From: a virus | Direction: 5' to 3' (one strand) | Length of the DNA: 49,607 nt | Virus record (IMG/VR): IMGVR_UViG_3300029952_000039 | Coordinates: 1-49,607 of that record | Shown: positions 1,630-45,311 of the stretch, piece after piece | Position numbering within the stretch: the stretch's first letter is position 1 | How the letters are laid out: the number at the start of each line of letters is the position of its first letter | Notes under the pieces: model-generated | What the model saw: the letters and a program-made list of their open reading frames with translations, nothing else | Databases searched by the model: none | What the model was told of the DNA's origin: nothing | Translations under genes and position numbers: made by a program

Positions 1630-1645
1630 ATCGTGACACTATATT
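1630..1645 (+). promoter_or_regulatory. Phage promoter element, leaderless type (copy 1)
   Basis: ATCGTGAC (1630-1637), two bases, then the hexamer TATATT (1640-1645). Six bases later comes the ATG at 1652. It matches the repeated element in this genome at 7 of 8 octamer positions and has the same spacing. Confidence 0.6.
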
Positions 1646-1651
1646 TGATGA

Positions 1652-1861
1652 ATGGACGCCATCGAAGCATTACGCCTCATCGCCGAACTCGACAAACCGC
1701 TCGAAGCGACTTCGCCTAACGACTGGCGGCGGCGTGTGCAGTTGATTGCGCGGATTGCACTTGGGGTAACAGAGAGTCCAATTGCATACGGGCGAGTTGA
1801 AGACGCAGGTCAACAATCTCCGCTTCCGCCTTCTCCAAATTGTCATGCAGCTTGTGATTGA
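1652..1861 (+). CDS. Small plus-strand ORF, possibly a truncated gene
   Basis: This 69-residue reading frame starts exactly where the phage promoter element predicts a leaderless start. The first 40 residues or so (MDAIEALRLIAELDKP onward) look like a genuine helical protein. The remainder looks like an antisense shadow of the leftward gene at 1716-1937, which it overlaps for 146 bases. A reasonable reading is the 5' remnant of a gene cut short when the leftward operon was joined to it, or a real short protein. No family was recognised. Confidence 0.4.
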   Translation: MDAIEALRLIAELDKPLEATSPNDWRRRVQLIARIALGVTESPIAYGRVEDAGQQSPLPPSPNCHAACD

Positions 1862-1937
1862 TCTTCATCTGGACTGAGAGCATTGCCTCGGCGTCGATGG
1901 CGCGCTTCTCCAGCGCTTGTTGCGTTGTGGTGTTCAT
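1716..1937 (-). CDS. Small coiled-coil phage protein
   Basis: This 73-residue protein is strongly helical with heptad-like spacing (LEKRAIDAEAMLSVQMK, LHDNLEKAEAEIVDLRLQL). Its ATG overlaps the stop of the preceding gene (ATGA at 1937-1934), which supports it as a member of the leftward operon. The last 15 residues or so overlap the start of the plus-strand frame at 1652 and have low complexity. Its function is unknown. Confidence 0.6.
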   Translation of the reverse strand: MNTTTQQALEKRAIDAEAMLSVQMKINHKLHDNLEKAEAEIVDLRLQLARMQLDSLLPQVQSAQSTAHAAASR

Positions 1938-2284
1938 CGCTGTACCCGGATCGGGATTCCTTTCAGTTGGTGTTCGTACATGGCGCAGAGGGGATCGCTT
2001 TTAGCTTCATACACTCGACAAGTTTCTGGCCGGTTCTCGTAATCTGTGCAGCGGCCGTCGGCGCCAAGCCGTTCGCAATCGAATTGCACTAAAGTTTTAC
2101 CTTCTGGCGGATATGAAGACAATTGTTCGACAAGTGGGCGGACTGGTTTGAAATAATACAGTCCATACAATTCCATGAAGTTTTCAGCTTCAATTTTCCA
2201 GTTATCGATATTGAAATGCTTACCTCCAATTGTGAATCCGCTGCAGCACGCGCCAGGGTGGGTGCATGTGTCACAGGTACTCAT
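1934..2284 (-). CDS. YkgJ-family cysteine cluster protein (putative metal-chelating)
   Basis: This 116-residue protein has the cysteine layout of the YkgJ/UPF0153 Zn/Fe-chelating family: CDTCTHPGACCSGF near the N-terminus, then CERLGADGRCTDY and RPETCRVY in the second half. The start at 2284 (MSTCDTC) is preferred over the in-frame ATG at 2302. At 2284 the ATG overlaps the stop of the 58-codon gene upstream (ATGA), as elsewhere in this operon. YkgJ-like proteins are thought to bind metal. The role in a phage is unknown. Confidence 0.8.
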   Translation of the reverse strand: MSTCDTCTHPGACCSGFTIGGKHFNIDNWKIEAENFMELYGLYYFKPVRPLVEQLSSYPPEGKTLVQFDCERLGADGRCTDYENRPETCRVYEAKSDPLCAMYEHQLKGIPIRVQR

Positions 2285-2457
2285 GCCGGTATCCATTCCC
2301 ATTGAGGTTGCCCAAGCCGCATGATGACCTTGCCGTCGGGACCGCAGAGTGGGCGTTTGCGATGCAGGACACCGCGCACCAGCATCGTGTTTGGCGTGAG
2401 TTTGCGCGCACGCGGCCCAGTGTGCGGCGGCGGGTGTTTGGCGTTTATGTCATCCAT
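2281..2457 (-). CDS. Small hypothetical phage protein, 58 aa
   Basis: This short basic protein runs from MDDINAKHPP to GQPQWEWIPA. It fills what would otherwise be a 160-base gap in a tightly packed operon. Its stop overlaps the next ATG (ATGA at 2284-2281), and its start lies inside the end of the upstream gene (13-base overlap). The middle (LVRGVLHRKRPLCGPDGKV) looks like a small beta domain. No family was recognised. Confidence 0.6.
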   Translation of the reverse strand: MDDINAKHPPPHTGPRARKLTPNTMLVRGVLHRKRPLCGPDGKVIMRLGQPQWEWIPA

Positions 2458-2648
2458 TGATCTGGAAACCTTATCGTAAATGGTTGTTCTGGTTCAAAAT
2501 TAATGCACCATGTTGGTCTAGCTTCAGAAATGCTTATATCACGCAACATCGCGCCGGAAATCAAGAATTCTTCTATTTGCTTCTCAATCAGCATTGCATG
2601 CTCAAGCAAAGCGGATTCATACTGTCTCCAGATGGTGCCTGATATCAT
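2445..2648 (-). CDS. Small hypothetical phage protein, 67 aa
   Basis: The start (MISGTIWRQYESALLEHA) lies in an ATGA overlap with the gene upstream. A helical N-terminus is followed by a short beta-like end (WCINFEPEQPFTIRFPDQW). It belongs to the leftward operon. No domain was recognised. Confidence 0.55.
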   Translation of the reverse strand: MISGTIWRQYESALLEHAMLIEKQIEEFLISGAMLRDISISEARPTWCINFEPEQPFTIRFPDQWMT

Positions 2649-2890
2649 ACCTGCACATCATCATCATAAAACCCGCGCACGACATTGCGAGGCACGAATC
2701 GCGCCGTGGCGATCTCGGCCGCACGTTCGCGCATAGCGGCTTCGCGCTGCAACTCATCGGCCGCCGATTCTGCCTGCGCTTTGGTGTCGCAGTCGACCAG
2801 CGGTACAAAAATTCGCGTGCCAGGACGCACGTAGCCGGCGTAATAGCCGCCTTTTTTGTGACCTGGGCCGATAGCGATGAAGTCGAGCAC
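2645..2890 (-). CDS. Small hypothetical phage protein, GTG start
   Basis: This 81-residue protein is read from GTG at 2890 (VLDFIAIGPGHKKGG), two bases after the stop of the upstream gene, with a weak GGA upstream. An in-frame ATG at 2953 would force a 61-base overlap, and its extra residues (MHAGKWRRRTDF) look like antisense of the neighbouring gene. The first half looks beta-rich and the second half is an Ala/Glu-rich helix. The stop overlaps the next ATG (ATGA). Function unknown. Confidence 0.55.
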   Translation of the reverse strand: MLDFIAIGPGHKKGGYYAGYVRPGTRIFVPLVDCDTKAQAESAADELQREAAMRERAAEIATARFVPRNVVRGFYDDDVQV

Positions 2891-2892
2891 GG

Positions 2893-3204: not shown

Positions 3205-3206
3205 GG

Positions 3207-4168: not shown

Positions 4169-4184
4169 GTCGTGACTTGATACT
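4169..4184 (+). promoter_or_regulatory. Phage promoter element, leaderless type (copy 2)
   Basis: GTCGTGAC (4169-4176), two bases, hexamer GATACT (4179-4184), six bases, then the portal ATG at 4191. No ribosome-binding site lies before that ATG. Confidence 0.7.
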
Positions 4185-4190: not shown

Positions 4191-5996
4191 ATGACCGACA
4201 ATGCCAGAAAACTGCTGTCCGACTCGCGTGCGCCGGCGGACGAACAATTCGCCGCGATGGCAGAATTGCAAAAAACGCTTATGCCTACGCGTTCCGATCT
4301 GATACCTGCTGGCAATATCGCGCCTATTATCGACTGGATGCGTGAGAATTATGCAGAACAGGAGATGAATAAGGCGCTGACCCGCAACAATGTCATTCAC
4401 TTCCCCAGCATGGCGGCCCGCAATCGGCAACCTGGTATGCAGTCGGTCGATCTCGATGATAACCAAGTCGGCGTCTGGGGGGACTATTATGAACGCCCGG
4501 GCGCGTTCGGATTTGATTCGATGCGGATGATGGTCGAGCAAACGCCAGTCTTGTCGGCAGTCATCTGGACGCGGATTCGCCAAGTTCAGCGCTTTGCGCG
4601 GGCGCAGGAAAACGGTAAGGGCCCAGGCTTCGAAATCCGAATGCGTGATCGCGATGCCTTTGTCGGCAAACCAGAAAAGGAGAGCATCACCGCGCTCCAG
4701 ACGTTTTTCACCAACTGCGGATGGGAAACAAACCCGCGCGCGCGGGCACGGCTCAAGCGCGACGACTTCACTAGCTTTCTGACCAAGCAAGTGCGCGACA
4801 GCTTGACTATGGACTCGGCACCGATCGAGACTGAATTCAAGCGCAATCGCTCGCAGGGCATGGATGGCATCTATGCCGTCGATGGCGCCACGATCCGGCT
4901 CTGCACCGAGGTTGGTTACCAAGGCGACGACGAGATCCGGGCCCTGCAGGTGGTGCAGGGGCAAATCCGATCCGCTTACACATTCGATGACCTCATCTAC
5001 GTTCCGCGCAATCCCCGCGCAGACGTAATCGTGGGCGGATACGGCCAATCCGAGACGGAATTGCTTGTCAAGACGGTCACGAACCTGCTGAACGCCATGA
5101 CGTACAATGGCAAGTTCTTCGACAGCAACGCCATCCCGAAGGGGCTGCTGCACCTCACCGGCGACTACGATGCCAATGACCTCGCCGCCTTCAAGCGCAT
5201 GTGGTCGGCAATGACAAAGGGTATCGCCAACGCCTGGACGATGCCGGTCCTGGTATCCAAGGACCAAGAGAGCAAGGCCGCATTCGAGAACTTCGGCCAA
5301 GAAGTCAACGAGATGATGTTCAGCAAGTGGATGGTCTTCTTGACGTCGATCATTTGCGCTGTCTACGGGATCTCGCCGGAAGAGATCAACTTCGAGAGCT
5401 TCAGCTCGAAGACATCAAGTCTCGGCGGCAACAACGACACCGAAGACAAGATCATCTCGTCGAAGGACAAGGGCTTGTTGCCGTTGCTGCACTATTTCGA
5501 GAATGTCTACAGCGATTTCATCGTTGCCGAGTTCAGCGACAAGTATTGCTTCCGCTTCACTGGCCTCGACGACGAGGACGAAAAGCAGGGGTTCGAGGAA
5601 GAAAAGCTTGTCTTGACCGTCAACGAGATGCGCGCCAAACGCGGATATGAAAAAATAGAAGCTGCTTGGGGCGATGCGCCATTGAACCCGTCGCTTATCG
5701 GACCCTGGCAGGCTGAGCAACAACAGGGCCAGCAGGATTTCGGGCAACCGCAGGGGGAGATGGCGGAGCCAGCCGATGAAAATGCTGACGATGACGGGCA
5801 ACCACTGGGTGCCGCTTCCGGTAGTGCTGCACCGGCGCCGGCCGGCAATGACTTCGGTGGCGACAAGGACAGTGGCGACTTCGGCGCACCGGCACATGGC
5901 ACGGACAAGCCGCTCCCAGCTGCGTCTGGTGACGAATACGAACCAAACCCGATGACCAAGTCGTTCGGACTCCCAATTTTTACGATCGAGGCTTGA
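4191..5996 (+). CDS. Portal protein
   Basis: This 601-residue protein has the size and pattern of phage portal proteins. It has an alpha/beta wing with GFDSMRMMVEQTPVLSAVIW, repeated membrane-independent helices, the stretch ISPEEINFESFSSKTSSLGG typical of the crown/clip region, and a Gln/Gly/Pro-rich acidic C-terminal tail. Portals form the dodecameric DNA-entry ring of the head. The start has no ribosome site but sits 6 bases after a phage promoter element, suggesting leaderless translation. The last residues (MTKSFGLPIFTIEA) resemble the repeated short peptide found in the neighbouring internal proteins. Confidence 0.85.
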   Translation: MTDNARKLLSDSRAPADEQFAAMAELQKTLMPTRSDLIPAGNIAPIIDWMRENYAEQEMNKALTRNNVIHFPSMAARNRQPGMQSVDLDDNQVGVWGDYYERPGAFGFDSMRMMVEQTPVLSAVIWTRIRQVQRFARAQENGKGPGFEIRMRDRDAFVGKPEKESITALQTFFTNCGWETNPRARARLKRDDFTSFLTKQVRDSLTMDSAPIETEFKRNRSQGMDGIYAVDGATIRLCTEVGYQGDDEIRALQVVQGQIRSAYTFDDLIYVPRNPRADVIVGGYGQSETELLVKTVTNLLNAMTYNGKFFDSNAIPKGLLHLTGDYDANDLAAFKRMWSAMTKGIANAWTMPVLVSKDQESKAAFENFGQEVNEMMFSKWMVFLTSIICAVYGISPEEINFESFSSKTSSLGGNNDTEDKIISSKDKGLLPLLHYFENVYSDFIVAEFSDKYCFRFTGLDDEDEKQGFEEEKLVLTVNEMRAKRGYEKIEAAWGDAPLNPSLIGPWQAEQQQGQQDFGQPQGEMAEPADENADDDGQPLGAASGSAAPAPAGNDFGGDKDSGDFGAPAHGTDKPLPAASGDEYEPNPMTKSFGLPIFTIEA

Positions 5997-8060: not shown

Positions 8061-8094
8061 ATGCTTGACAAGCATTGTTCAAATTTGATGTAAT
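8060..8094 (+). promoter_or_regulatory. Hairpin and sigma-70-like promoter
   Basis: AATGCTT-gac-AAGCATT (8060-8075) forms a 7-bp stem without a long T run, so at best it is a weak terminator. The same bases contain TTGACA (8065-8070), which is 18 bases from TGTAAT (8089-8094), a fair host-type promoter. The phage element at 8105 lies just downstream. Confidence 0.4.
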
Positions 8095-8104: not shown

Positions 8105-8120
8105 GTCGTGAAGGTAAAAT
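8105..8120 (+). promoter_or_regulatory. Phage promoter element with leader (copy 3)
   Basis: GTCGTGAA (8105-8112), two bases, hexamer TAAAAT (8115-8120). The predicted RNA start near 8127 lies past the ATG at 8123, so translation would begin at 8192 with a leader of about 65 bases. Confidence 0.55.
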
Positions 8121-9522: not shown

Positions 9523-9538
9523 TGCGTGATTGTAGGAT
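9523..9538 (+). promoter_or_regulatory. Phage promoter element, leaderless type (copy 4, weak)
   Basis: TGCGTGAT (9523-9530) keeps the CGTGA core. Two bases on is TAGGAT (9533-9538), then six bases and the ATG at 9545. Spacing equals copy 2 exactly, though both boxes deviate. Confidence 0.5.
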
Positions 9539-9544: not shown

Positions 9545-11752
9545 ATGGAAAAACCACTTCTCATCGATGTCGGCGCCTGCTGCGAAGACCATACCAATTC
9601 CGCGCTGGAGCACTTGCACAAGGCCATTGGTGAGGGCGATCCCGATCTGATATGGGCGGTTCACCATTCTCCGTTCCTGGCGCGCATGATCGAACTCTTT
9701 ACCGAGCGCGGCTTGATGCGGCTCGACGGCTTCAAAAACGAACTCATGCAATGGCTCGCCGGCGAGCGCCATGTCGGCCAGCACCGCACTGTCGTGCCGG
9801 CTGGCATGCACGAGCGCTGGACCGATAGCGAAATGAAGTTGGTCAAGCTCTACCTGGAGTCGCTGGCACCGGGTACGTTCACGCTCGATGACTACATGCT
9901 GTGCGTGGACATGCTGTGCAACAAGTACCTGGCGCCGGATGCGCTGCGCACCGAAGCCGAGTGGCTGGCTACCAGGTCCGTGCTCATGGGCCGTGTCCAG
10001 GCGAGCATGGCGACGGTATCGGCCAAGCAGGTTGATGTGTTACTCGAAAAACTCCCTGCCACCGTCGCCGCTGCCGCCGCAGAATTCCCGTTCACTCCCG
10101 TCCAGCGCGCCGTCATCGACTACGCGCGCGTGCGCGGCTGCGAAAACGTGGTTGAACTCGCGGCGTCGACCCGCAAGACCATGCGCGCCATCATCCAACT
10201 CAAGATGGCTGCCGATGCCTTGGGTAATCCGGCTCCGATGAACAACTTGCAGACGGCTTTGTTTGATGCGTTCGGGGAGTTGAATCGGGATTGGCGGCGG
10301 ATAGCGTTGACGGAAGCGGTCGAGAACTCCAACCAGGGCTACGTGGCATCAATGCCGGAAGGCAAGAAGTTGCGACGCCTTGAGCAATACCATGGCGCTT
10401 GCCCATGGTGCAGGCGCATCGATGGCATGGTGCTGGAGGTTGTCGCGCCGGGTGCTGTCGATAAGAATGGCGATACCCAGGTATGGGTCGGCAAGACCAA
10501 TCTCGGGCGCTCGGCCGCGCCGCGCCGGCGCCAAGGCGGGATATTGGTCGAGAGGCAACCGGAAGAGATGTACCATGTGGCCGCTGGCGCGCAGCATCCC
10601 AATTGTTTCATCAGCAGAAATGTTAATATTTATACTGTCGATGGTTGGAAAAAGATTGGCGATATTTCTATTGGTGATCTAGTTCTCACACACAAAGGTA
10701 GATTTCGGAAAGTAACATGGATTCTATCTGGTGCTCGTCATACTGGTGATGTAATTCAGATTGAAATTTCACAAGATGGTAGAAATCGCATTAAGATTTC
10801 TGAAATGACGCCAGAACATCCTGTTCTAACCGAAAGGGGTTGGGTTAATGCTGGCGATATAGTTATTGGCGATAAAGTGTCTGCATTAGCTAAAATTTGT
10901 GAAACTTGCAGAAAACCGTTTGTTAATGCACATCACCCGCATATAAAATCATGCTCAAGCCAATGTGCTGTTCATCTTGGAATAAACCAATTTTCAACTG
11001 GTGATCCAATAGCATATGCCGCTGCCATAAAACAAACTGCTGATTCTAATCGTATTCGTATGCGTGGCATGACGGTCGAACAGAGGCGTGAAATAACTGC
11101 AAGCGCACGTATTGCTTCAAGTGCCCTTGGTTATTCTTGGTTGAAAACTCCAGAATCAAAACGTAAAGGTGGGCTGACTGCATCAAAGCATAATTACACA
11201 CCATCCCCAATTGAGGAAGATATTGCCGAGATGATTGAGTGTCTAGGAATATCGGTTGATCTTCAGCATCGAGTTGATAGAAATTATCCAGATGCTGCTG
11301 GTCGTAAGCGTTATTGGTGGATTGATATTGCATTGCCGGAACAGAAAATTGCTGTCGAAATAGATGGTGAACCATGGCATGGTAGATTATCTGGCGGCGG
11401 TGATAGCAAGCGCGATGATGATCTAAAATTATCAGGTTGGAATGTAATGCGTTTTGATTCTTTGAATGCAAAAGAATCACCGCATAAGGTGGCTGAATCG
11501 ATTGCTCGTTTGGCGCTTAACCATTCTGGTGAATATACTTTTGGAAGTGCGGATGTATCGTCTATTTCTAGGCGTCATGTGACAAATAAATTGCTTTATA
11601 ACTTTGGCGTTGAAGAAGATGAATCGTACATTATTGGCCGTGGCGTAGTAGTTCATAATTGCCGTGGTTCCTGGCTTGAAGAGGTTGATGATCTACCGGG
11701 TGAGGATGCCGAGTTCGGCGCTCGCATTCGTGAAATTTTGAGGAAGAAATAA
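9545..11752 (+). CDS. MuF-like head morphogenesis protein interrupted by an intein
   Basis: The 735-residue precursor has an extein of residues 1-353 and 706-735. The extein is a phage head morphogenesis (MuF/SPP1 gp7-like) protein, with [11 protein letters not shown] near residue 285 and the family's terminal HPNCRGSW signature, which is split by the intein between N353 and C706. After splicing the product would be 383 residues. Such proteins sit inside or at the portal of the procapsid. The start is leaderless-type, 6 bases after a promoter element. The stop overlaps the next ATG (TAATG). The intein part is visibly more AT-rich than the extein. Confidence 0.88.
10604..11659 (+). other. Intein with Vsr/DUF559-like homing nuclease
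   Basis: This 352-residue insert begins with Cys354 ([15 protein letters not shown], block A), has [13 protein letters not shown] near residue 421 (block B, TxxH), and ends [11 protein letters not shown] followed by Cys706, the standard C-terminal splice junction. The middle holds a four-cysteine zinc finger (CETCRK and CSSQC, about residues 452-480). A nuclease domain of the Vsr/DUF559 fold follows ([20 protein letters not shown], about residues 594-613), and not LAGLIDADG or HNH. Vsr-type nucleases in inteins and introns have been reported but are uncommon. Codons such as AAT, ATT and GGT are enriched, suggesting recent arrival. Confidence 0.9.
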
Positions 11753-12489
11753 TGCCACTCGCATCAGGCGACAGCCAATCCGTGATCAGTTCCAACATAG
11801 CCGAAATGATTCGTGCCGGACATCCGCGCGCGCAGGCAGTCGCCGCCGCCTACCATAATGCCGGGAAGTCGCACGGCCACGTCAATCCACGCCCCGATAT
11901 GATCAAAGCGCGCTGCGGCGGTCCTGGTATGTGCCCCATCTGCAAGTGCGAACAGGCTGATATGGCTGGGGTGCCGATGGTGAAGTCCGTGCTATTCGTC
12001 AAGGCCCAACCGACCGAAGCCCAGATCGCCGCTGGCAACTACAAAAAGCGGCGCATCGCCTGGCATGGACTTGAGATCGCCGTCGAGAACGAGGCGGGAT
12101 CGACGCGCAGCGGCACCAAGCCGAATGGCGACAAGTGGTCGACCACCATGGTGCGCCCATACGGCTATTTCTGCCGGAGTGAAGGCACCGATGGCGATGA
12201 GGTCGACGTATTTGTCGGGCCGGATGAAGACGCCACGCAGGTCTATGTGGTGCGCCAGCGCAAAGTCGGCGACTGGGAGCGCTACGACGAGGACAAAGTG
12301 ATGGTCAACTTCCCCAATGAGACTGCGGCGCGCGCGGCATTTTTGCGCAATTACGATGACCCGCGCTTTCTGGGGCCGATCACCGCCATGCCGGTTGACG
12401 AGTTCGTCGCCAAGGTGCGTGCTACGTATGACAAGCCTGCGATGATTAAGGCTGTGCTGTTCTTCAAGGAAACCACCAAGTCATCGTGA
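11752..12489 (+). CDS. Polyvalent-type protein with inorganic pyrophosphatase-like domain
   Basis: This 245-residue protein has three parts. The N-terminus has the phage motif [20 protein letters not shown], followed by [12 protein letters not shown], possibly metal-binding. Then comes [16 protein letters not shown]. The central domain ([45 protein letters not shown]) matches the InPase domain described in polyvalent phage proteins. The acidic GDEVDVF motif is the likely metal site. It ends in [15 protein letters not shown], a second copy of the ILF-type peptide. The start is in a TAATG overlap with the MuF gene. Whether it hydrolyses pyrophosphate is not known. Confidence 0.75.
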
Positions 12490-15400
12490 TGGTAGGCTGT
12501 CAGAATCCCAATCTGACGGCCACTGCGATGCTGATATTCTTCAAATCCGAGCAATTTGGCTTGTTTAGTGCGCCTGTCCATGTCGGAGCGAGCGTGCGTG
12601 CCGATGGTACCGTAGTGGCACCGCATACGCGCATCCAAAAAATCAAACTGAAGCACGATACTGCGCCTCGGCACAAGAAGCTTGATTCGTTCATTGCCGC
12701 ACATGGCGGCACCGAGCGGCTTTCCAATACATTGTCAGGCATGACGGAACCGCAGCGCCAGCGTCTGATCGCCGAAATGGCGAAATTGGATGGAATCACA
12801 CCTGAACAAGTGGCGGCGAAGTTCGTTATCACCGTACCTACAGCTACAGTCGGCGAAACGCCGGACCTGTTTTCCGCGCCAATAGAGCCTGAAATTGCAA
12901 CGGAATCGGCTGAACCTGCAACAAAACATGAAATAACCGAACACGTCACCGGGCGCGGTAAGACGCTGCGCGGCGTGGTTCGGCATGATCTGAGCGCTGA
13001 CCAGGCCAAGGCCATTGACGAATACACGTTCAAAAAGGACGGTGGCTGGTTCATTCGCGAGAAGCATCTTGGCACCACACCAGCGATTTCGCGTGCGAAA
13101 GCAGTAGAGTATTCAATGCATGTGGCGCCTGTCGAACCACATCCTATCGAAGCCGCTGCGCCAGCGTCAGCAGTCGAGCAAGGCCCATTCGGCGTCCCCG
13201 CCGGCATCACCAAAGCCAGGCGCCGCGAAATCAACCAAAAAGCATTCGATATCGTCAATTCCGGCAAAGACATCACCGACAGCGATCGCGCTGTCTTGCG
13301 CCAATACAGCGGTAACGGTGGCTGCGGCGACAGCTTGAACGAGTTCTATACCGACCAGGAAGTGGCGAAGTCCATGTGGACAGTCCTGGGGCGGCTCGGC
13401 GTAACGCATGGCACTGTGCTGGAACCATCCTGCGCGACCGGCGTTTTTGCGCATACTGCGCCGGTCGGCGTGCGCCTTACCGGCGTCGAACTCGACCCGA
13501 CCAGCGCAGCGATCGCCGATGTCCTGCATGGTGACCGCCATGAAATCGTCAATTCCAGCCTGGAGCGTTTCGCTACATCCGATGGTGACCGCCAGTTCGA
13601 TGCAGTCATCGGGAACGCGCCATTCGGACTCCGCGGCAGTCTCATCAAAGACGATAAGCCGGAACTGTCCACCGCAGAAGGTTACTTCCTCGATACGTCG
13701 CTGGATAAGTGCAAACCCGGCGGCGTGGTGGCGATGATCGTGCCCACTGGCGTGCTCGACAGCAGCAGCGGCAGAAAGGTCCGCCAGCGCCTACTCTGCA
13801 AAGGCGAATTTCTCGGCGCCATTCGCATGCCAAACACGGCATTCGAGCACAGCCATACCGAAGTGACGACAGATATTGTGTTCTTCCGCAAACGTCCTGA
13901 TGATGTAGCGGCGGCGCTGAAGTCTGCTGGGCGCGCGGCCATGAAGAAACTCGGCGTCTGGGACGAGGATTACTTGTCAGGAAACTATTTTGAAGGGCGT
14001 GGTGCTGATTCAGTCTTCGGTACAATGGAAGCGGGCTGGCGGGCGAAGGCCGGAATCGGCAATGACATCACGGTAGCCGGGAGTATGATCGGCGTCCCAG
14101 ATAGCATCAGTACATGGCAACCAGACGAATTCAAGACGCCGACGCCTACCGTGCAGGAAGTCGTTGACGCACTCGATGATGATGGCGACCGCAAGCGGGT
14201 GCTCGGCGCCGCCGTGAAACGCAATTACGTTGTCGGCAAGGTCGGCGATACCAAGACGGTTGATGGCATTGACTATATTCTGCAGGGGCGGCCGCCGCGC
14301 TGGCACCGTGTCGACGAGTTCATGCAGTCTGCCGATGTGACCGATGCCCAGCAGCTCGCGCGCGATATTGAGTCAGCTATCGCCGGTGGCGACCGGGTCG
14401 GCCTGGCCGAGCGCGTTCAGGCTTACGTCGATGCGCATGGGAACCCGGGAAAGAACAAGAATTTGTTGTTGGCGGCATCGCAAGATCGCGTTTTGTATCG
14501 TCTCATTGGCGCCGTCAAACCCGACGGCACGCTGTCTGATGTGGTGTCTGGGGCTACTGTGCAGCGCGTCGAGGGGTCGTTCGAGACCGCTGCGCAGTCG
14601 CTTGCGATCGAGCATGACAATGGCCTATTCACAGTTGCCGATCTGGCGGCGCGCATGGACAAACCAGTTGCCGACGTCGAGGACCATCTCTTTGCCTCGT
14701 CCGACTACGCCTATGCAGGTGGCGACCGCTGGACGACCATGGACATTTACCTTACCGGAGACCTCTGGCCGAAGCTGGATGGGGTCCGCGCAGCGACAGC
14801 ACAAGGCGAACTCCGTGAAGGACTAGCAGAAAAATATGCGCTGCAGGCAAAACGCCTAGAAGACGCCATCGACCCGAAGTCGCTCGAAGACGTCGACATC
14901 CAGGTCAACACCGCGTTCCTGCCTACAACCATACTCGAAGCCTACCTGAACGACAAAAAGAACAATTCCGGTAACGACTGGGAGCGCAAGCACCCAGACA
15001 TATCGATCAAGTTTGCAGATGCGTGGTACACGGTCACAGGTGGCAGCGAGTATTCGAGCGCACAGAAGTTGCTCACCAATTACCTAAACCGTGATGGCGT
15101 CGGCAAGAAAGACTTACCTGACATTCAGGCACTCAATGAAGACTTCAAGGCGTGGTTGCTGACGAGTCGATACCGTGACGAGGTTGAAGACTTGTATAAC
15201 CGGCGCTTCCGTGGCTTTGTCCAGAAGGAGTTTTCGGACGCAACAATTGATATCCCGGGCATGAATACTGAGGGCCTGAAGCAATACCAGTACGCGGGGT
15301 TGCGCTGGGCGATGTCCGCTGGTAAAGGAATTGTCGCGGCTGACGTCGGGCTCGGCAAGACCGTACGTGGTCTCATGCTAGCGCGCATGGCGAAAATCAA

Positions 15401-18400
15401 TGGCACCGCGCAGCGCCCCACGTTCGTGGTGCCGAAGTCAGTTCTGGCCAACTGGGTCGCCGAAGCCGAGCGCTGGTTTCCTGGCAGCCGCTGTCTGGTG
15501 ATAGGTGAAACCTACACGCGCGATGCCGATGGCATGCTCAAGAGCAAACCCGATGACGCCGCCACTCGTGCGCGCAAGCTACACGACATGGTGCAAAACG
15601 ATTACGACTTCATTTTCATCTCGCAACCGACATTCTCAGAAATCGACATTGACCCGATTACCAAGGGCGAATACGTCAGTTCCGACTTCTGGGTGCAGCG
15701 TGGCGACAAGAAGGGCAACGCCGGCGACAAGAAGTTGAAGAAAATCCGTGAGGCGTACGATCAGGCGATTGCCAATCGTGAGTTCGGGAAGCGAACAGAC
15801 GCGATCTATTGGAATGACCTTGGCGTCGACATGCTGTTAGTGGATGAAGGGCAAAATTTCAAAAATTTGTTTTCTGCCAAGGCAAGATTCGGCTCGACGC
15901 CTAAGTTCCTTGGCGGCCAAGGCGAGAGCATGCGCGCCTTTGACCTGAACATGAAAACGCGGTACCTGCGCGAGCACAATGATGGCAAAGGCATTTATCT
16001 GCTGTCCGCGACACCGACAAAGAACTCGCCGCTGGAAATTTATTCGATGTTGTCGCATATCGCGCCGGAAGCGTTTGAACAGATCGGCATCCGCAACAGT
16101 GAAGAGTTCCTGGACCGGTTCTGCTTGTTTGTCGAGGACAAGGTACTCACCACCACCGGTACCATCGAAGACGCCATGGTGACCGCTGGCTTCAAGAACT
16201 TGGGTGAGTTGCGCGAGATCATGCGCAAGTACATCGACCGCAAAACCGCTGCCGATGTCGGGCTCGTGCTGCCTCAGCGCGATGACCAGATGCACTTGGT
16301 AGACATGAACGCAGAGCAACAAGCCGTCTACGCGGGATTGCGCCAGGACCTGATTGACTCGGCCAAGGAAAAAGACGCTACCGGAGACGCACACATTTTC
16401 TCGATCATGAGCAAGATGGGGAAAGCGGCTCTTGATTTGGAACTACTTGACCCTGAAAAATATGTTGGCGAAGTCAGTCCAAAATATGAAGATGCGGCCA
16501 AGGTGATCGCGGCCGGTGCCAAAGACGGGGGTCAGGTAGTTTTCTGTGACAGCGTGCAAGCGCACCAAAAGATTGTCGAAGCACTCGTGCGCGCCGGCAT
16601 GGACCGCAAGCGAATCGCCATCATCAATGCCTCAGAAGCGGAATCATCCTCCAAGCGCCAGAACATCGCCGACGCCTTCAATGCCGGCAAACTCGATGCC
16701 GTGGTTGGCAACACCGCGACCATGGGTGAAGGCGTCAACCTGCAGAAAAAGACAACCGATATCCATCACTTCGATTTTCCTTGGGACCCGGCCAGCATGC
16801 AACAGCGCAATGGCCGTGGACTGCGCCAGGGTAATATCAATGAGGCTGTGCGCATTCACTCCTACATGAGCAAGGGTTCGTTTGACGGTTACCGATACCA
16901 ATCCATGATGGCGAAAAAGGATTGGCAGGATATTTTGTGGACTGGTGGCGATACCGTCGAGAATCTGGCGCGCGAGGGGAAACTTGATCGGTCCGACCTG
17001 CTGATCATGATGTCTGCCGATCCTGACGCAGAGCGTGCCAAGTTCGAAGCCGATAAAGCTGCAGCGGCCCAGCGCTACGGCGCCGACCAAACGCGCGATG
17101 CCGCCTATGAGTTCAAGCGTCTGCAGTTGAAGAAGCAATCCTATGGCGAACTCAAGAACAAGGATAACGCCAGCGCAGCGCGGTTGCGGTCACAGATCGA
17201 TCAAGCCACCAATAAATTGGTGAAAAACAAGTATTTCATCGCCAAGGAAGCGCTAACCAGCAAAGTCCCGGTTGTGATCCATCCCGAGACCGGCGCTGCA
17301 TTGAGCGCTGGAGTAGGACTCGATGTCGCCGAAAAGAACGGTACCATTGGTAAATGGGTGATCAGTTCCGTTAATCCGATCAGCGGAAACGTGTCCATGC
17401 GCCGCTACGGAGAACTCGGAAACGCTCGCGCTATATCGGTTCCGTTGAAGGAAATGGAAACCGGCGTCACTACTTTCAACTATGTCGAAGCCGATGAACA
17501 GGCAGTGATCGCTACCAAGTTATCGGCGGCTGCGGAAGATTCAGTCGGCTCGGTGGTTGATCTGAAGTCGCTGAAGGGTATGCCGTCTGCTGTGATCCAT
17601 TCCAATTACAAGGCCCTGCAAAGCCGCTTGAAAGAAGGTCTTCGTGATTACAAGTGGTCTTCTCCGTATGGCGGTATGGGGTTCCTTGATGCGTCTGGTA
17701 CGCCTGTTGCCGCTGAATCGTATGAGGCGCATAAGTTGGCGGCTTCGGACCAGCACGATATCATGCTCCCCACTGACGAGCATCGGGAAAAGGCAATCCA
17801 GGCATATATCGACGATGAGAAGGCTAAGCGGTTCACTACTGAGTATGTGACCGGTCGCAACCGTAGCCGACCAGGACAGACCGTATTCGTACAGCGCATG
17901 CCTGGTAAGCACGATCAAAGCTACAACCGGTGGAAGTCGATCGGCAATGAATTGTTCGGGCATGAATTCGAGAAGGATGCTAAATCGGCATTCCATAGTG
18001 TTCAGGGCGATACCATACGCCATGCGCCAACCTTCCATGATGCCATCCGCGCAGCGGTTCCGATGGCTGATATTGGGTACGGAACCACACCGAAGTGGCC
18101 GCGCAAGGCGCTGGCCGTGCTGTACGCAAAGGCCAAGCACGATGGTGTTCTGGACAAACCATTCCAAGAAGTGCAGCCGAAGTCGTCTCGTGGTGATAAC
18201 GAGGTTCACAAGGACATATGGAAGTATGGGGAAAGTGGAAACGCGTTGATGAGCGGGATATATGGCGGTGGCACCACCGTGCGCGACGCCTTGACAACCC
18301 TTGCGCAACACAATGGATACGCTGACCTAGCATCTGCCATGACGGTATCTAGTACCAAGCCTGAAACTGCGGCCAAAGATGCTGGGCGTTTGCTCAACAT

Positions 18401-20300: not shown

Positions 20301-20316
20301 GTCGTGACCTGAATAT
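20301..20316 (+). promoter_or_regulatory. Phage promoter element, leaderless type (copy 5)
   Basis: GTCGTGAC (20301-20308), two bases, GAATAT (20311-20316), seven bases, then the ATG at 20324. This selects 20324 over upstream in-frame starts, which would lie before the RNA start. Confidence 0.65.
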
Positions 20317-25175: not shown

Positions 25176-25191
25176 GTCGTGACTTGATACT
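25176..25191 (+). promoter_or_regulatory. Phage promoter element, leaderless type (copy 6)
   Basis: GTCGTGAC (25176-25183), two bases, GATACT (25186-25191), seven bases, then the ATG at 25199. It is almost identical to the portal copy over 16 bases. Confidence 0.75.
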
Positions 25192-31158: not shown

Positions 31159-31895
31159 GGTTCGGCGAACGCCAATTTGATTACCTCATCTGCCGCCGGT
31201 TGCATGGCCTCGGCGACCTTCTTGGCGATGTACTGGCCTGGTTGCGCCGGGATGATCCAGCCTGCAGACCATTCTCCCATAACGCGAAATGTGAGATATG
31301 TACTGGACTTCGACTTCTTGCTCGAGGTGTCGAACCGGACCATTCCGTGCTGATTTGTGCCTGGCGCGTTCATGCGGTCGCCCCAGTTGTAGGTAGCGCG
31401 CTGGCGCATGCGCACGCGAGCGCCGGTACCGCCATTGTTCTGCAACGCCTTGCCAGTCACCACAGACGGCGCCATGCTCGACGCGGCTTGATAGGTATCT
31501 GCCGACATGCCGCTGACATTGTGCCTGAGGGGGATGATCAGATACCGCTGTCCGGCATGGGGGCCGGTCTTGGCGAACCGTATTTTCTTCGATGTCTGGA
31601 GCATGCGCTTGAGGTCGCGCGGCGGCCGCCCGGTCTCGATCTCTTCCGCGTATTTGTAGTTGGAACTGATCACGGCCGACAGGTCGGTAGGATACGCTAC
31701 CGTGATGGACGCCATGTAGGGGGTTTTTTCACCGCTCCATAGCCGTGCCTTTTTGATTGCGTTTATCCAATCTTCCCTGGTGATTTCAGCGATGTTGCGT
31801 ATGGCCTGCTTGACGCGCGGGAAGACGGCGCCATTCACGACCCTGCGAATATCGTCAGCGTTTGGTAGATCGATGGTGATGGTGTAGTCGGCCAT
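31155..31895 (-). CDS. HK97 gp10-like neck/tail-completion protein, inverted orientation
   Basis: This 246-residue protein (RVVNGAVFPRVKQAIRNIAE, SVVTGKALQNNGGTG, GEWSAGWIIPAQPGQYIAKK) looks like gp10-type tail-completion or neck proteins, which have this amphipathic start and cationic middle. It is the only structural gene on the minus strand. Its ATG follows a reverse-strand copy of the phage promoter element by 6 bases, so it has its own promoter, abutting the forward copy. The family call is moderate; that it is a structural protein fits its neighbours. Confidence 0.6.
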   Translation of the reverse strand: MADYTITIDLPNADDIRRVVNGAVFPRVKQAIRNIAEITREDWINAIKKARLWSGEKTPYMASITVAYPTDLSAVISSNYKYAEEIETGRPPRDLKRMLQTSKKIRFAKTGPHAGQRYLIIPLRHNVSGMSADTYQAASSMAPSVVTGKALQNNGGTGARVRMRQRATYNWGDRMNAPGTNQHGMVRFDTSSKKSKSSTYLTFRVMGEWSAGWIIPAQPGQYIAKKVAEAMQPAADEVIKLAFAEP

Positions 31896-31901: not shown

Positions 31902-31917
31902 ATTATTGCATCCCGTC
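31902..31917 (-). promoter_or_regulatory. Phage promoter element, leaderless type, reverse (copy 8)
   Basis: On the minus strand GACGGGAT (31917-31910; 5 of 8 matches), two bases, AATAAT (31907-31902), six bases, then the ATG at 31895. It touches the forward copy at 31918. Confidence 0.5.
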
Positions 31918-31933
31918 GTCGTGACTGCACAAT
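31918..31933 (+). promoter_or_regulatory. Phage promoter element, leaderless type (copy 7)
   Basis: GTCGTGAC (31918-31925), two bases, CACAAT (31928-31933), seven bases, then the ATG at 31941. It sits head-to-head with the reverse copy. Confidence 0.7.
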
Positions 31934-31940: not shown

Positions 31941-32783
31941 ATGATCACGCAAATACTGCCTTCTGCCGTCGGGAACGCGCTCAAGATTTATCTTGAGCAA
32001 GAGCCGACTGCGCTTGCTTGGGTGATTTTGCGTAATACCACTGGTATTTTCCCATCATACAACGACGTCAATTCCGTCTCGATTTATGAAGGGGACGACG
32101 AAACGTATCTGATGGATACCTGCGGCCTCGTCAACGGGACCCTGTACTATTATTGCGAATTTTACTGGGATGGGACGGCTTGGAATGCCACTGCCATAGT
32201 GTCAGGGACGCCGAATTACACCTACACCGACCAGTCGGTTGATGTCCTCACAATCGTGCGCGACCGGCTCCAATATGGCCTTGAAAACGAGATCATCATC
32301 GGCACGTTGTCGCCGGCCAGCGGGCAGATACAGGTTCTGAATGCGCCGCCGATATTCGATGAAACGAATTTTCCAGTGGTGACGGTGCATGTCGCTGTCG
32401 ATGGCAGCGGCGACCGCGCTATCGGCGAAATGCCGTTCACTGACGAATTCGATGCGGTCAACAACGTCTGGAAAGAGTCGTCTGGATGGATGGCGCATGT
32501 GTCGCTGACTATCATCGGCTGGAGCAAGAACCCGGATGAGCGGATCGCGCTGCGGCGTGCTCTGCGCAAGATAGTCATCGGCAACCTGGAAGTATTCGAC
32601 AATTACGGGATCATCCTGCCTGAGTTCAGCCAACAAGATGTCGATGCGCTGCCACCAGAATATCCGGCTGCCGTGTATGAGTCCGTTTGCACATTCACAT
32701 GCGAAGCCCCATCCGGCGTGGCCGATACGCAGCCTGTCTATGTTGCGGATCCTATCGTTAACGCAACCCCTGTTTTCCTATAG
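31941..32783 (+). CDS. Putative tail terminator/neck protein
   Basis: This 280-residue protein has an N-terminal half (IFPSYNDVNSVSIYEGDDET, YYYCEFYWDGTAWNA) that looks like a beta sandwich. The C-terminal half (DRLQYGLENEIIIGTLSPAS, FPVVTVHVAVDGSGDRAIG, IALRRALRKIVIGNLEVF) has the alpha/beta pattern of tail-terminator proteins. Position just before the sheath gene supports this. The start is leaderless-type. Confidence 0.55.
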   Translation: MITQILPSAVGNALKIYLEQEPTALAWVILRNTTGIFPSYNDVNSVSIYEGDDETYLMDTCGLVNGTLYYYCEFYWDGTAWNATAIVSGTPNYTYTDQSVDVLTIVRDRLQYGLENEIIIGTLSPASGQIQVLNAPPIFDETNFPVVTVHVAVDGSGDRAIGEMPFTDEFDAVNNVWKESSGWMAHVSLTIIGWSKNPDERIALRRALRKIVIGNLEVFDNYGIILPEFSQQDVDALPPEYPAAVYESVCTFTCEAPSGVADTQPVYVADPIVNATPVFL

Positions 32784-35339: not shown

Positions 35340-35355
35340 GTCGTGATAGGAGAAT
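35340..35355 (+). promoter_or_regulatory. Phage promoter element with leader (copy 9)
   Basis: GTCGTGAT (35340-35347), two bases, GAGAAT (35350-35355). The predicted RNA start near 35362 leaves a 26-base leader to the ATG at 35388. Confidence 0.55.
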
Positions 35356-41311: not shown

Positions 41312-41327
41312 TTCGTGACCACATAAT
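41312..41327 (+). promoter_or_regulatory. Phage promoter element, leaderless type (copy 10)
   Basis: TTCGTGAC (41312-41319), two bases, CATAAT (41322-41327), six bases, then the ATG at 41334. Confidence 0.7.
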
Positions 41328-41333: not shown

Positions 41334-42563
41334 ATGTCCATATCGTCCATCACGTCGGCTATCAATGGTGCTGCGAGTTCGCTTAACTCGTTAGTAGGCG
41401 CGCCATCGCCGCCATCGAGTCAAAAGGCGTTGGCGGTAACATTCGTTCTACTCGACAAAGCAAATGGCGGCAGCAAATCTCTTGATCTGATTATCCGTCC
41501 CGAGGACTTGACCCGCACTGATGTGTCGCGCATAACCGTGCAGCAGACGCTTGGCGGTGCCTGGGGCGATGATTTTGGTGTCGGCCTCTCGACAATCAAT
41601 ATCAGCGGTACCACTGGCTGGCGTGGTAATAAGTCTGGCGATGGCAGGGTCCAGTTTTCAAATTTAAAAAATCAGGTATTCACGGACTGGCATGCGCGGC
41701 GCAACAAGGCGCTAAAGGCAGGGAAAGACCCCGCCGGCGTCATGTTGGTTTTTGTCGATACGCTCAACCAGAACCTCGACTCCGTGATCCCGATGACTTT
41801 CACACTTCGCCGCTCAAAGTCGCGGCCTCTGCTGATGCAGTACAACATTTCGATGATTTCCATAGCCTGGAAGGTTGTGCCGCCACCGGCACCGTCCTCT
41901 GCTGGCGGTCTCGCGGGCTTGCTGGCGTCAATCAAAAACCTCATTGCGGCAGCCAATAATGTTGTTAATTTCGTCAAGAGTGCAATAGGGCAGGTAACTG
42001 CTTACATCAATACGGCAACGACCATTTTTCAGAGCGTTACCAATTTGATACAAAATGCGCAGTCGATACCGCAGAGCCTACTCGGGCCAGCGATAGCGTG
42101 CGCGCAGGCCGGCGCGACCATGTTTTCAACGATTGCCAGCATGTCGGGGTCGACATCACAGTCTGCTGCGGCCATGGCGACTGCTTCCGATTTTTCAAAT
42201 ATCTTGTGCTTGCTCAATAACGCCGTCAACACGGTGCAGACGTATCCAGACTACACGCCTTTGTACGGCGCATCAAATTGCAGTAGTACCAGTGGAGGCT
42301 CTCCACCAAGTCCATACGCTGACACGAACCCATTTTATGCGGTAGTTGGGGCCCCGCAAAATGCGCCGGCACCGGCATCGACCACTGCGGCGGCACCGGT
42401 CATCGTGGTGCCGACTGTCTTGCCGCCGACTGTGACGATTACGCCGGCCGCGCAGCAATCGCTTGCGCTCATCAATAATTCAGATCCGGTATTGGCGCCA
42501 ATGTCCATGTCGGCGCTTGGTACTGCAGCAGGCGCCATCGCATCCGGGATAACACTCAAATGA
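41334..42563 (+). CDS. Baseplate structural protein
   Basis: This 409-residue protein has an N-terminal beta domain (FVLLDKANGGSKSLDLIIRP, GISTINISGTTGWRG-type pattern at about residues 82-97), a helical Ala/Ser-rich middle and a Pro/Ala/Thr-rich tail. The N-terminal pattern recurs in large-phage baseplate proteins next to a LysM/gp25 gene. It overlaps the next gene by ATGA. The specific subunit is not named. Confidence 0.65.
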   Translation: MSISSITSAINGAASSLNSLVGAPSPPSSQKALAVTFVLLDKANGGSKSLDLIIRPEDLTRTDVSRITVQQTLGGAWGDDFGVGLSTINISGTTGWRGNKSGDGRVQFSNLKNQVFTDWHARRNKALKAGKDPAGVMLVFVDTLNQNLDSVIPMTFTLRRSKSRPLLMQYNISMISIAWKVVPPPAPSSAGGLAGLLASIKNLIAAANNVVNFVKSAIGQVTAYINTATTIFQSVTNLIQNAQSIPQSLLGPAIACAQAGATMFSTIASMSGSTSQSAAAMATASDFSNILCLLNNAVNTVQTYPDYTPLYGASNCSSTSGGSPPSPYADTNPFYAVVGAPQNAPAPASTTAAAPVIVVPTVLPPTVTITPAAQQSLALINNSDPVLAPMSMSALGTAAGAIASGITLK

Positions 42564-43174: not shown

Positions 43175-43183
43175 GGATCGATA

Positions 43184-44329
43184 GTGGCATTCCAACTCAA
43201 AAATTTTGTTTCTATTGTTGCGTCGATGGTAAACCGCATGAAAGCGACGCAAACAAATTTGACCGACTTCAACATTGGTGCCGCTGGCCGCACGCTAGTG
43301 GAAGCGCCAGCGATTGAGATCGACCAGCTTTACCAGCAGATGTTCAACGGACTCACGCAAGCGATTCCGGTAAGCGTTTTCCAATCATTCAATTTCCCGC
43401 CACTGTCAGCCATCGGGTCCAGCGGCACCATGACAGTTACCGTGGCAGCGTCGACGAACCCAATCATCATCTCGGCTGGGACGGTGTTCTCGGCGACGGC
43501 GACAGCTATCACATGGTCGTCGACTGCCAGCGTAACCATACCGCCAAGCACTACCACGGTCAGCGTTCCCGTGACAGCTACTACCACTGGTTCATCCACG
43601 AATTTGGTTGCCGATGTAGCATTCACGATGACGCCTGCGCCGGTAGGATTTTCCAGCGCCACCAATTTGTCTCCGTTCGTGAATGGGCTCGATACCGAGA
43701 CGCCGGCGGCCCAGCAAATCCGGTTCGCCGCATTCGTAAACTCGCTGCCGCGCGGGACCGTGGCGGCGCTGTACTATGCGATGACGCTTGCGAACGTGCA
43801 AGATGCCAACGGCAATATCATCGAGCAAGTGCGCTTGTCCAGCGTCGTCGAACCCTGGCTCACCGATGACACACAGCCTGTGAGTGTTGTGAATTGCTAT
43901 ATCCACAATGGCATCGGCAGCACTTCCGTGGCATTGCAAACGAGCGTCAATAACGTGATCCTCGGCTATTATAATTCTTCCGGCGTAGCCGTTCCTGGGT
44001 ACAAGGCCGCTGGCGTCAATGTGAACACTGTTATCGCGACCGAGGTAGCCGTGCCCGTGACTGGGGTCATTACGGCAGCGGCTGGCTATTCACTGACAGA
44101 TCAGGTGATAAACGGCGTCACCGTTCCCGGGTTGGAGACGTTGGCCGCTGCCGCAATCACGTCCTATCTGATAGCGCTTGCCATAGGTCAATCCGCGATT
44201 GAAGCAGAGATCGTCGCGCTCGTGATGAACATCCCCGGCGTCTACAACTATGTCGGGAGCTTACCGGCAGCCGACGTAACGGCCACGGTGTCGCAAAAAC
44301 TGATGCCTGGCACGATCACGTTGACCTGA
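43184..44329 (+). CDS. Baseplate J-like protein
   Basis: This 381-residue protein starts with GTG at 43184 with AGGGA upstream. The N-terminus (KATQTNLTDFNIGAAGRTLV, EAPAIEIDQLYQQMFNGL) is diagnostic for baseplate J/gp47-like wedge proteins. The middle is a beta-rich insert of Thr/Ser/Val strands. The stop is followed after one base by the next gene. Confidence 0.87.
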   Translation: MAFQLKNFVSIVASMVNRMKATQTNLTDFNIGAAGRTLVEAPAIEIDQLYQQMFNGLTQAIPVSVFQSFNFPPLSAIGSSGTMTVTVAASTNPIIISAGTVFSATATAITWSSTASVTIPPSTTTVSVPVTATTTGSSTNLVADVAFTMTPAPVGFSSATNLSPFVNGLDTETPAAQQIRFAAFVNSLPRGTVAALYYAMTLANVQDANGNIIEQVRLSSVVEPWLTDDTQPVSVVNCYIHNGIGSTSVALQTSVNNVILGYYNSSGVAVPGYKAAGVNVNTVIATEVAVPVTGVITAAAGYSLTDQVINGVTVPGLETLAAAAITSYLIALAIGQSAIEAEIVALVMNIPGVYNYVGSLPAADVTATVSQKLMPGTITLT

Positions 44330-44330
44330 T

Positions 44331-45302
44331 ATGCAAATCACAAAAAAACTCATTGGCTATCTCAATCGAGTCTTTAAAAAAGACCCGTTGCCGTTCCTCG
44401 CGCTTGCTATTTCATATGCCGGAACCAGTTTCACATGGTCTATAAAAGATGCTCCCGTCTATACAGCTATCTGGACCTGGGATGATGGGTCAACCACTTG
44501 GGATGATGGGTCAACCAATTGGGATGGAATAAATAATGCCTATATTCCCAGCACGACATCTATTTTGACGATTACACCTATCGGTGGCAGCGGCACGACA
44601 TTGGCGATCGATCTAAGCAAGTACACTATTACCGGGCTCGCCGAATTCATCGCGACTCAGGCAGGGTATTCGGTTAGCTACACAAACTCGTCTGGCATGG
44701 CTGCCTTGAGCGCATTAGTGCTCATCAATGGCAGCGGGTCGTCGACGCAACAAAATGGCGGCTTCCTTTACGGGTACACCAATTTTTGGTGGGCGTACAT
44801 GGACGCATGCGCAGAAGAACTTGAGACCGCTCGGACACAAATCATCGCCATGCCGGCGCAAATGAATACGGTCAATGCCAATGGGTCATGGCTTGATTTT
44901 CTCGGAAATTTTTACGGTATCCCCAGAAATCAAGGCGAACTCGACCCGCAATACGGGCCGCGCATTATCGCGATGGTTATCAGGCCGCTTGGGAATAATA
45001 TCGCTATCGCTGAAGCGTTGCGCGCCATCAACGGCGGTGGTGCCGTGACCGTCCCCGATTACCCGACGCTGACCAACAACAGCTACGGTCTTTTCGATGT
45101 GAATTTTTCAGCGAGTTTGGCGCTGTTGAGTGTGATGACACTTGGGGAAATCGAAACTTCCGTGCAAGCAATCGTGAATAAAATGCGCGATGCCGGCACA
45201 TTTTTGCGCGTGCTGTCGGTTATCAGCCCGATCGAAGGAACGACATATATTGGAGCCGCCGTCATTTCAGGCTGCACAACATACGTTTATCCGCCGCCGT
45301 GA
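44331..45302 (+). CDS. Tail/baseplate gpI-like protein
   Basis: This 323-residue protein follows J, the I slot of P2-type order. A perfect tandem repeat encodes WDDGSTT-WDDGSTN-WDG (44478-44528). The C-terminal half (ANGSWLDFLGNFYGIPRNQG, IAEALRAINGGGAVTVPDYP, IETSVQAIVNKMRDAGTFLR) fits phage tail proteins that join wedge to fibre. Confidence 0.72.
   Translation: MQITKKLIGYLNRVFKKDPLPFLALAISYAGTSFTWSIKDAPVYTAIWTWDDGSTTWDDGSTNWDGINNAYIPSTTSILTITPIGGSGTTLAIDLSKYTITGLAEFIATQAGYSVSYTNSSGMAALSALVLINGSGSSTQQNGGFLYGYTNFWWAYMDACAEELETARTQIIAMPAQMNTVNANGSWLDFLGNFYGIPRNQGELDPQYGPRIIAMVIRPLGNNIAIAEALRAINGGGAVTVPDYPTLTNNSYGLFDVNFSASLALLSVMTLGEIETSVQAIVNKMRDAGTFLRVLSVISPIEGTTYIGAAVISGCTTYVYPPP
44478..44528 (+). 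repeat. 21-bp tandem repeat in the gpI-like gene
   Basis: Two in-frame 21-bp units (TGGGATGATGGGTCAACCA plus two variable bases), followed by the start of a third. They encode WDDGST units and keep the frame, so copy number could vary without breaking the gene. Confidence 0.85.
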
Positions 45303-45311
45303 CACCATAAT
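45296..45311 (+). promoter_or_regulatory. Phage promoter element with leader (copy 11)
   Basis: GCCGTGAC (45296-45303), two bases, CATAAT (45306-45311), leading to the fibre gene ATG at 45339 after 27 bases. Confidence 0.5.

Follow-up and report, generated by a model that had tools for sequence, protein, structure and literature searches.

T4 middle promoters (MotA/AsiA) and the extended −10 promoters of Thermus phage P23-45 (gp39) are described, in an excerpt of PMC7403470, as cases in which a phage factor redirects host RNA polymerase (RNAP) to promoters without the usual −35. In P1, the 11 late promoters contain a 9-bp inverted repeat to which Lpa binds (excerpt of PMC10695390). In D. radiodurans, nearly a third of the genes have a −10 motif about 6 to 7 bp before the open reading frame (ORF) (excerpt of PMC12340547), and in T4 gene e, soc, 49, and I-TevI, the longer early transcripts form an inhibitory hairpin at the ribosome-binding site, the 5' portion of which contains a late promoter and is missing from the transcripts of that promoter (excerpt of PMC3014915). 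Here, we analyzed an element that recurs in the 49,607-base virus record IMGVR_UViG_3300029952_000039 (the window, which is one part of a larger genome) and that consists of an octamer such as GTCGTGAC, two free bases, and a −10-like hexamer. We consider it likely that each copy is a late promoter, with a phage factor on the octamer and a host sigma factor on the hexamer, and that about half of the copies give a leaderless start. None of the literature matches listed describes the motif, which does not establish its absence in print.

Composite elements in the window and its relatives

Using the major capsid protein as query, we identified 48 related IMG/VR loci as well as named myovirus-type phages with genomes of 86-96 kb. 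Capsid identity to the window is 59-69% for PHB04, ST4, Jeremy, Dolphis, phiT5282EW, and fHe-Yen8-01 and lower for Touem01 (38%) and Mecenats66 (36%). Three sibling contigs (67,448, 65,384, and 43,476 bases) match the window at at least 99.98% across long overlaps. Leaving out these siblings, and Jeremy from all sequence scans, the family-wide set comprised 97 sources (2.09 Mb), i.e., seven named relatives, the window, and 89 viral loci. It contained 349 GTCGTGAY octamers with flanks, of which 297 were distinct after removal of near-identical ones; a composite-pattern scan of the whole collection, which returned at least 120 stretches, was not used for counts.

A hexamer of the form.A...T lies exactly 2 bases past the octamer in 233 of the 297 cases (the composites), while spacings of 0, 1, and 3-7 give 2-21 of 297. 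Over all 297, hexamer base 2 is A in 85% and base 6 is T in 83%, while at base 1 C (48%) is commoner than T (17%). When octamers were ranked without reference to the motif, GTCGTGAC was the commonest one starting 22 or 23 nucleotides (nt) before an ATG (107 vs 3.3 expected from control offsets); this ranking used 17,132 open frames of at least 80 codons, and the related genomes among their sources do not count as independent. In the 97 sources, each position 5' of the octamer carries at most 0.05 bits and TTGACA matches do not surpass those in shuffled sequence, i.e., there is no −35 signal, in agreement with the earlier observation that the window copies lack a −35 box (best TTGACA match at most 3/6 in all eleven with spacers of 15-19). 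A TG at −15/−14, the criterion for an extended −10 element, was found in only 37 of the 233 composites.

All eleven copies that had been listed by eye in a sequence-only reading of the window are present (Table 1; copies are named by the position of the first octamer base). With a matrix made from these eleven, the scores are 16.9-20.3 bits for nine plus-strand copies, 13.9 for the best remaining window site, 13.2 for 31917-, and 12.7 for 9523. In leave-one-out ranks, 9523 and 31917- come 57th and 69th, and neither stands out alone. Because a matrix from the eleven copies is circular, we trained a second one on relatives alone, using 60 sites from six named relatives, excluding the window, and taking 100 dinucleotide shuffles as background. 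At 13 bits or more, this matrix gave 9 window matches against a shuffle mean of 1.24 (maximum 5); eight are listed copies and the ninth, 44557-, is unlisted. The listed copies under 13 bits were 31917- (9.6), 1630 (9.0), and 9523, which fell outside the best 25 matches. Matches of at least 8 bits with an ATG 6 or 7 bases past the hexamer numbered 7 in the window and 0.51 on average in shuffles (maximum 3). The finding that the sequence-only reading had named as counting against the motif, equally good copies at the same ATG spacing in shuffled sequence, was thus not made.

We also compared orthologous start codons, a check for which the sequence-only reading had called and whose outcome supports it. 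Pooled over eight window sites, 134 of 175 orthologous starts carry the motif, while it is present at 7 of 127 control starts for eight other window genes (0/30, 0/16, 0/26, 0/10, 0/8, 4/7, 3/23, and 0/7; the 4/7 represents orthologues that have gained the motif). Three sites (1630, 8105, and 45296) had no orthologous starts to examine. The motif-led genes include those for the portal, the head protease, and the helicase as well as proteins of unknown role, and the capsid and sheath genes, which lie inside operons, never have the motif. The copies found at the orthologous starts of relatives are strong, which makes the weak copies 9523 and 31917- credible. That two of the eleven copies are weak alone might suggest a chance pattern picked by eye, but the independent matrix, the octamer ranking, and the orthologous starts all contradict this explanation, and we rejected it as having virtually no probability. 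Judged from their sequences, the composite elements are very probably late promoters of a clade that includes PHB04, Dolphis, ST4, Touem01, fHe-Yen8-01, and phiT5282EW.

Table 1. Copies of the composite element in the window (octamer, two free bases, hexamer) and the starts they precede
Copy	Element	Coordinates	Strand	Downstream start or gene	Orthologous starts with motif
1630	ATCGTGAC-N2-TATATT	1630..1645	+	ATG 1652 of a 69-aa frame, 6 nt on	none found
4169	GTCGTGAC-N2-GATACT	4169..4184	+	Leaderless type; portal gene 4191-5996	14/14
8105	GTCGTGAA-N2-TAAAAT	8105..8120	+	Not of the 6/7 type: ATG 8123 at gap 2, or SD-led ATG 8192	no orthologous start
9523 (weak)	TGCGTGAT-N2-TAGGAT	9523..9538	+	ATG 9545 of a 735-aa gene, gap 6	10/21, nine at gap 6
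20301	GTCGTGAC-N2-GAATAT	20301..20316	+	Leaderless type; helicase gene 20324-24847	16/19
25176	GTCGTGAC-N2-GATACT	25176..25191	+	Leaderless type; head maturation protease 25199-26104	36/37
31917- (weak, divergent)	GACGGGAT-N2-AATAAT	31902..31917	-	ATG 31895 of gene 31155-31895 (-), gap 6	22/26
31918	GTCGTGAC-N2-CACAAT	31918..31933	+	Gene 31941-32783	29/30
35340	GTCGTGAT-N2-GAGAAT	35340..35355	+	Start 35388, gap 32, no SD 4-mer	7/22, 0 at gap 6/7
41312	TTCGTGAC-N2-CATAAT	41312..41327	+	Leaderless type; gene 41334-42563, virion structural / tail tube initiator family	0/6
45296	GCCGTGAC-N2-CATAAT	45296..45311	+	Tail fiber gene start 45339, gap 27; tail protein families	no orthologous start
Gap, nucleotides between hexamer and start codon; SD, Shine-Dalgarno; aa, amino acids.

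The octamers of 31918 and 31917- lie back to back and are divergent. Just 5' of the 8105 composite, the window contains a plain sigma70-like promoter (8065-8094, TTGACA-N18-TGTAAT). The 735-aa gene behind the 9523 copy (9545-11752) has weak matches to a Hint domain and to restriction-endonuclease-like proteins. In the head region, the C-terminal half of the product of gene 6300-7871 matches the Zeta toxin kinase family, and its PHROGs matches are minor head proteins. Finally, 12486-18584 encodes a 2032-aa methyltransferase/helicase protein with DarB-like antirestriction matches, and 18977-19765, on the opposite strand inside the late region, encodes an AntA-type antirepressor.

Start codons, hairpins, and terminators

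An ATG is present at gap 6 or 7 in 122 of the 233 octamers with a hexamer (91 at gap 6 and 31 at gap 7) and in 3 of the 64 without one. The base before this ATG is C in 69/91 cases at gap 6 and 25/31 at gap 7; a C at −1 would fit an RNA start at the A of the ATG and is the single feature that points to that start. Among the annotated genes of Dolphis and Touem01, an SD 4-mer is found before 1 of the 13 that have the motif at gap 5-8 vs 135 of the 226 that lack the motif, and the start codon is ATG in 13/13 and 169/226, respectively. In the window, the ATG lies 6 or 7 bases past the hexamer at eight of the eleven copies (1630, 4169, 9523, 20301, 25176, 31918, 41312, and 31917-), as the sequence-only reading had noted; its statement that these eight lack a ribosome site holds for seven by the 4-mer test but fails at 9523, where the hexamer TAGGAT itself holds AGGA. 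Its proposal of a class of leaderless mRNAs likewise stands in part, because only about half of the composites are leaderless; leaders are present at the others, many of them with a hairpin or an SD sequence. Taking an ATG at gap 6 or 7 as the mark of the leaderless class, we sorted the 233 composites into start classes as follows: 122 leaderless, 27 hairpin, 42 with an SD sequence and an open start, and 42 unexplained.

Two observations in relatives concern the leaderless-type start codon. In Dolphis, gp15 (annotated start 14482) and gp25 (annotated start 23748) have an ATG at gap 6 of a composite further upstream (L054:14320 and L054:23688); because relatives conserve the longer frame of both genes, it is probable that the deposited starts are incorrect. 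In fHe-Yen8-01 (L052:3726) and phiT5282EW (L058:31031-), the leaderless-type ATG begins a frame of two codons (ATG TTT TGA), after which come AAAGGGC and the annotated protease start. As the two-codon frame is kept in both phages, it is possibly a leaderless mini-ORF coupled to the next gene.

Hairpins are found on both sides of the element. Upstream, a hairpin plus T-run within 60 nt was detected at 47 of the 233 composites (shuffles 4.4, maximum 9) vs 1 of the 64 hexamer-less octamers; in the window, the T-run of a terminator-like stretch lies just upstream of 25176, and a GC hairpin with a T-run lies directly before 35340. Downstream, the 104 composites without an ATG at gap 5-8 include 24 with a strong stem starting 0-8 nt past the hexamer (shuffle mean 3.9, maximum 11), and in 17 of these 24 the 5' arm begins at the first base past the hexamer, while the leaderless class shows little stem excess (11/129 vs a mean of 7.2). 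Stems at offsets 0, 1, and 2 past the hexamer were found at 20, 20, and 13 of 111 sites (counts overlap), and later offsets are rare. In 5 of the 24, a T-run closes the hairpin directly before the ATG. If RNA starts 6-7 nt past the hexamer, most of the 5' arm would be missing from the transcript. The 45296 copy has a weak AU stem (TTCTTT/AAAGAA) beginning at the first base past the hexamer. Outside the main clade, a divergent composite at a Burkholderia locus (L270:9812, minus strand) is followed by a stem GAGGTA...TACCTC from about the first base past the hexamer.

These features suggest the following mechanism. A phage factor would read the octamer GTCGTGAC at −22 to −15, and host RNAP with its main sigma factor would open the hexamer two bases downstream, mainly via the A at −11 and the T at −7, with no need for a −35 contact. 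RNA would start 6 or 7 bases past the hexamer, so that in about half of the copies the start base would be the A of the ATG and the leading gene of the operon (portal, head protease, helicase, and others) would be translated from a leaderless mRNA; genes further along the operon would retain ordinary ribosome sites.

Two other explanations for the fixed layout do not involve transcription initiation. The fixed distance before many start codons without an SD sequence would also be expected of an RNA-level translation signal in long late mRNAs; yet an ATG at gap 5-8 is missing from 104 of the 233 composites, the sequence directly upstream is enriched in terminators, and the information stops at the octamer, and we consider such a signal extremely improbable. 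Alternatively, the element could be a repressor operator or stoperator scattered in the late region rather than a promoter, in line with the near-palindromic octamer (GTC-GT-GAC), the location of the copies in intergenic gaps in one orientation, and the AntA antirepressor encoded by the window. However, an operator has no need of a hexamer at fixed spacing, an ATG at a fixed gap, or loss of the ribosome site at those genes, and we regard this explanation as very unlikely.

Other observations weigh against the elements being late promoters that often direct leaderless starts. As many as 42 of the 233 composites fall outside every start class, copy 41312 is unconserved, and copy 35340 is only weakly conserved (Table 1). 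Moreover, Mecenats66 contains no strict composite and only two diverged copies at orthologous places, although the candidate reader gp82 (see below) is present. Leaderless translation in γ-proteobacteria is also usually weak.

Candidate readers of the octamer

We searched for proteins that could recognize the element. Sigma region 2 (PF04542) was matched in 0 of 10 records, while the control matched in 10 of 14, and sigma region 4 (PF04545) gave sub-threshold matches only; a diverged sigma factor could escape these searches. Given the lack of sigma region 2 matches in the phages, we favor a phage activator acting with the host polymerase, and the octamer may, as proposed earlier, be read by a phage-modified polymerase or an activator. 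Alternatively, an unrecognized phage sigma or sigma-like protein could read octamer and hexamer as one unit, in agreement with two features that are unlike ordinary sigma70 promoters: the spacing is rigidly 2 bases, and T is only weakly preferred at −12 (C 48%, T 17%). Against such a protein, in addition to the search results, an A at −11 together with a T at −7 is the sigma70 signature, and we hold it to be decidedly unlikely. A search for single-subunit phage RNAP matched 0 of 10 records and was uninformative, as the control matched nowhere either. The Lpa family (PF25716) was over the cut-off in P1 only (1/10 records) and in none of the seven named relatives or G001/G002; fHe-Yen8-01 has one sub-threshold match with an internal stop.

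A first screen for genes that are present with the motif and absent in Mecenats66 had pointed to gp82 and gp50. The argument that gp82 is missing from the motif-poor Mecenats66 was dropped, since a gp82 ORF that crosses the record end was found there. The Cys-rich gp82 family is the best candidate for the reader of the octamer, and we give this assignment a little less than an even chance. The protein has 173-184 aa in the named phages with eight invariant Cys and is probably zinc binding. It is present in all six named motif genomes, the window sibling G001, and Mecenats66, and among 50,697 named phage records it was found in 9, every one in this clade. No strict composite sites were found in four control stretches without gp82, i.e., the Thermus phages Lalka8 (50 of 72 kb) and phiMa (50 of 52 kb), SPO1 (40 of 133 kb), and the whole of P1. 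In bacterial genomes, 31 gp82 loci contain 29 GTCGTGAC composites compared to a mean of 0.92 for 300 permuted octamers. A clade portal/capsid match is absent from 13 of the 15 bacterial genomes searched, and these 13 hold 14 gp82 loci with 13 GTCGTGAC composites (mean 0.46, maximum 6, for 400 permuted octamers). Once GTCGTGAT is counted, 13 of the 14 loci have a composite. It lies 35-74 nt upstream of gp82 itself in three of them (L267, L270, and L271) and precedes a conserved gene of ~265 aa in three others (L257, L263, and L268).

Several findings speak against gp82 as the reader. The 14 bacterial loci were picked by gp82. Further stretches similar to clade ORFs, in several cases tail genes, occur in 11 of them and are absent only from L260, L261, and L270. 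The view that these loci are unrelated to the clade is thus wrong for most of them, and because of these matches we lowered the probabilities for both gp82 and the start-site gating described below. One locus (L259) has gp82 but lacks a site, a site is missing from the flanks of 11 of the 44 viral gp82 loci, and the bare octamer without a hexamer is not enriched in the 14 loci (19 vs a mean of 12). Moreover, gp82 has no recognized DNA-binding fold. Its AlphaFold2 model is confident (predicted local distance difference test [pLDDT] score 86.7; predicted template modeling [pTM] score 0.67), and in the PDB it had no Foldseek match at an E of 0.001 or better and a best VIA-align 2 Z of 2.2; in BFVD, it had a single match, an unnamed 90-aa viral protein. 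Sequence searches of Pfam, PHROGs, and the PDB sequences with gp82 gave nothing convincing, and gp82 has no similarity to Lpa.

The reader could instead be the small helix-turn-helix (HTH) protein gp50 or another early phage regulator, which would leave the promoter reading unchanged. gp50 was found in all six named motif genomes and the three sibling contigs of the window, and it leads the replication operon. By BLAST, no clear gp50 homologue was found in Mecenats66, where the strict motif has been lost, and gp50 fits this loss better than gp82, a further point against the latter. On the other hand, an HTH-like ORF is present at the place of gp50 in Mecenats66, and gp50 had no match in the 14 gp82 loci, 13 of which have a composite, with ~20 kb or less of each locus covered. 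We consider gp50 or another such regulator an unlikely reader.

If gp82 reads GTCGTGAC next to the −10 hexamer, the late program may be gated by the start site, such that late genes would be translatable only from RNAs begun at these promoters. In the leaderless class, a start codon without a ribosome site would be unusable inside a longer transcript and usable at a 5' end. For the hairpin class, longer RNAs would fold or terminate at the start, while most of the 5' arm would be absent from RNAs that begin at the promoter. In both classes, late genes would be shut off in read-through early RNA. We propose this gating tentatively and regard it as possible but rather doubtful.

Leaderless messages in Gram-negative hosts are considered rare and weak. 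If the proposals above are true, phages of α-, β-, and γ-proteobacteria have a clade-wide class of late promoters in which the starts of transcription and translation are coupled and which can serve as a model for the function of leaderless messages in Gram-negative hosts. The element would also account for wrong gene starts in deposited genomes and provide a cheap marker of late operons in uncultured phages, with one named protein as the candidate switch.

Comparison with known promoter and leader systems

The P1 late promoters controlled by Lpa, which depend on host SspA, resemble the composite elements in that a phage-specific element lies just upstream of the −10, without a −35, and is repeated before late operons. 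GTGAC is common to the P1 element AAGTGACTT and this octamer, but the P1 copy lies 4 bp further from the −10. The two systems also differ in that the P1 element is a 9-mer 4 nt upstream of the −10, while the octamer GTCGTGAC is 2 nt from the hexamer; in that the relatives have no PF25716 match over the cut-off and P1 itself has no composite site; and in that P1 late genes have leaders. With regard to T4 middle promoters, the MotA box replaces the −35, while the element described here would lie at −22 to −15, and P23-45 extended −10 promoters differ in the TG at −15/−14, which only 37/233 composites have.

As in the leaderless genes of Deinococcus-Thermus, the −10 lies 6-7 nt before the start codon (122/233) and SD sequences are lacking (1/13 vs 135/226). 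There, however, this layout is a host-wide habit without an octamer, while here it belongs to a phage-specific composite in phages of Proteobacteria. As in T4 gene e, the promoter would lie inside the 5' arm of a start-codon hairpin (24 of 104 non-leaderless sites), a likeness of layout that is drawn from sequence. Unlike in T4 gene e, the arm is anchored to the first bases past the −10 at many promoters, and some hairpins have a T-run. The element is thus of a known kind, a phage late promoter with an activator element replacing the −35, and what is new is the systematic leaderless layout together with the anchored hairpins.

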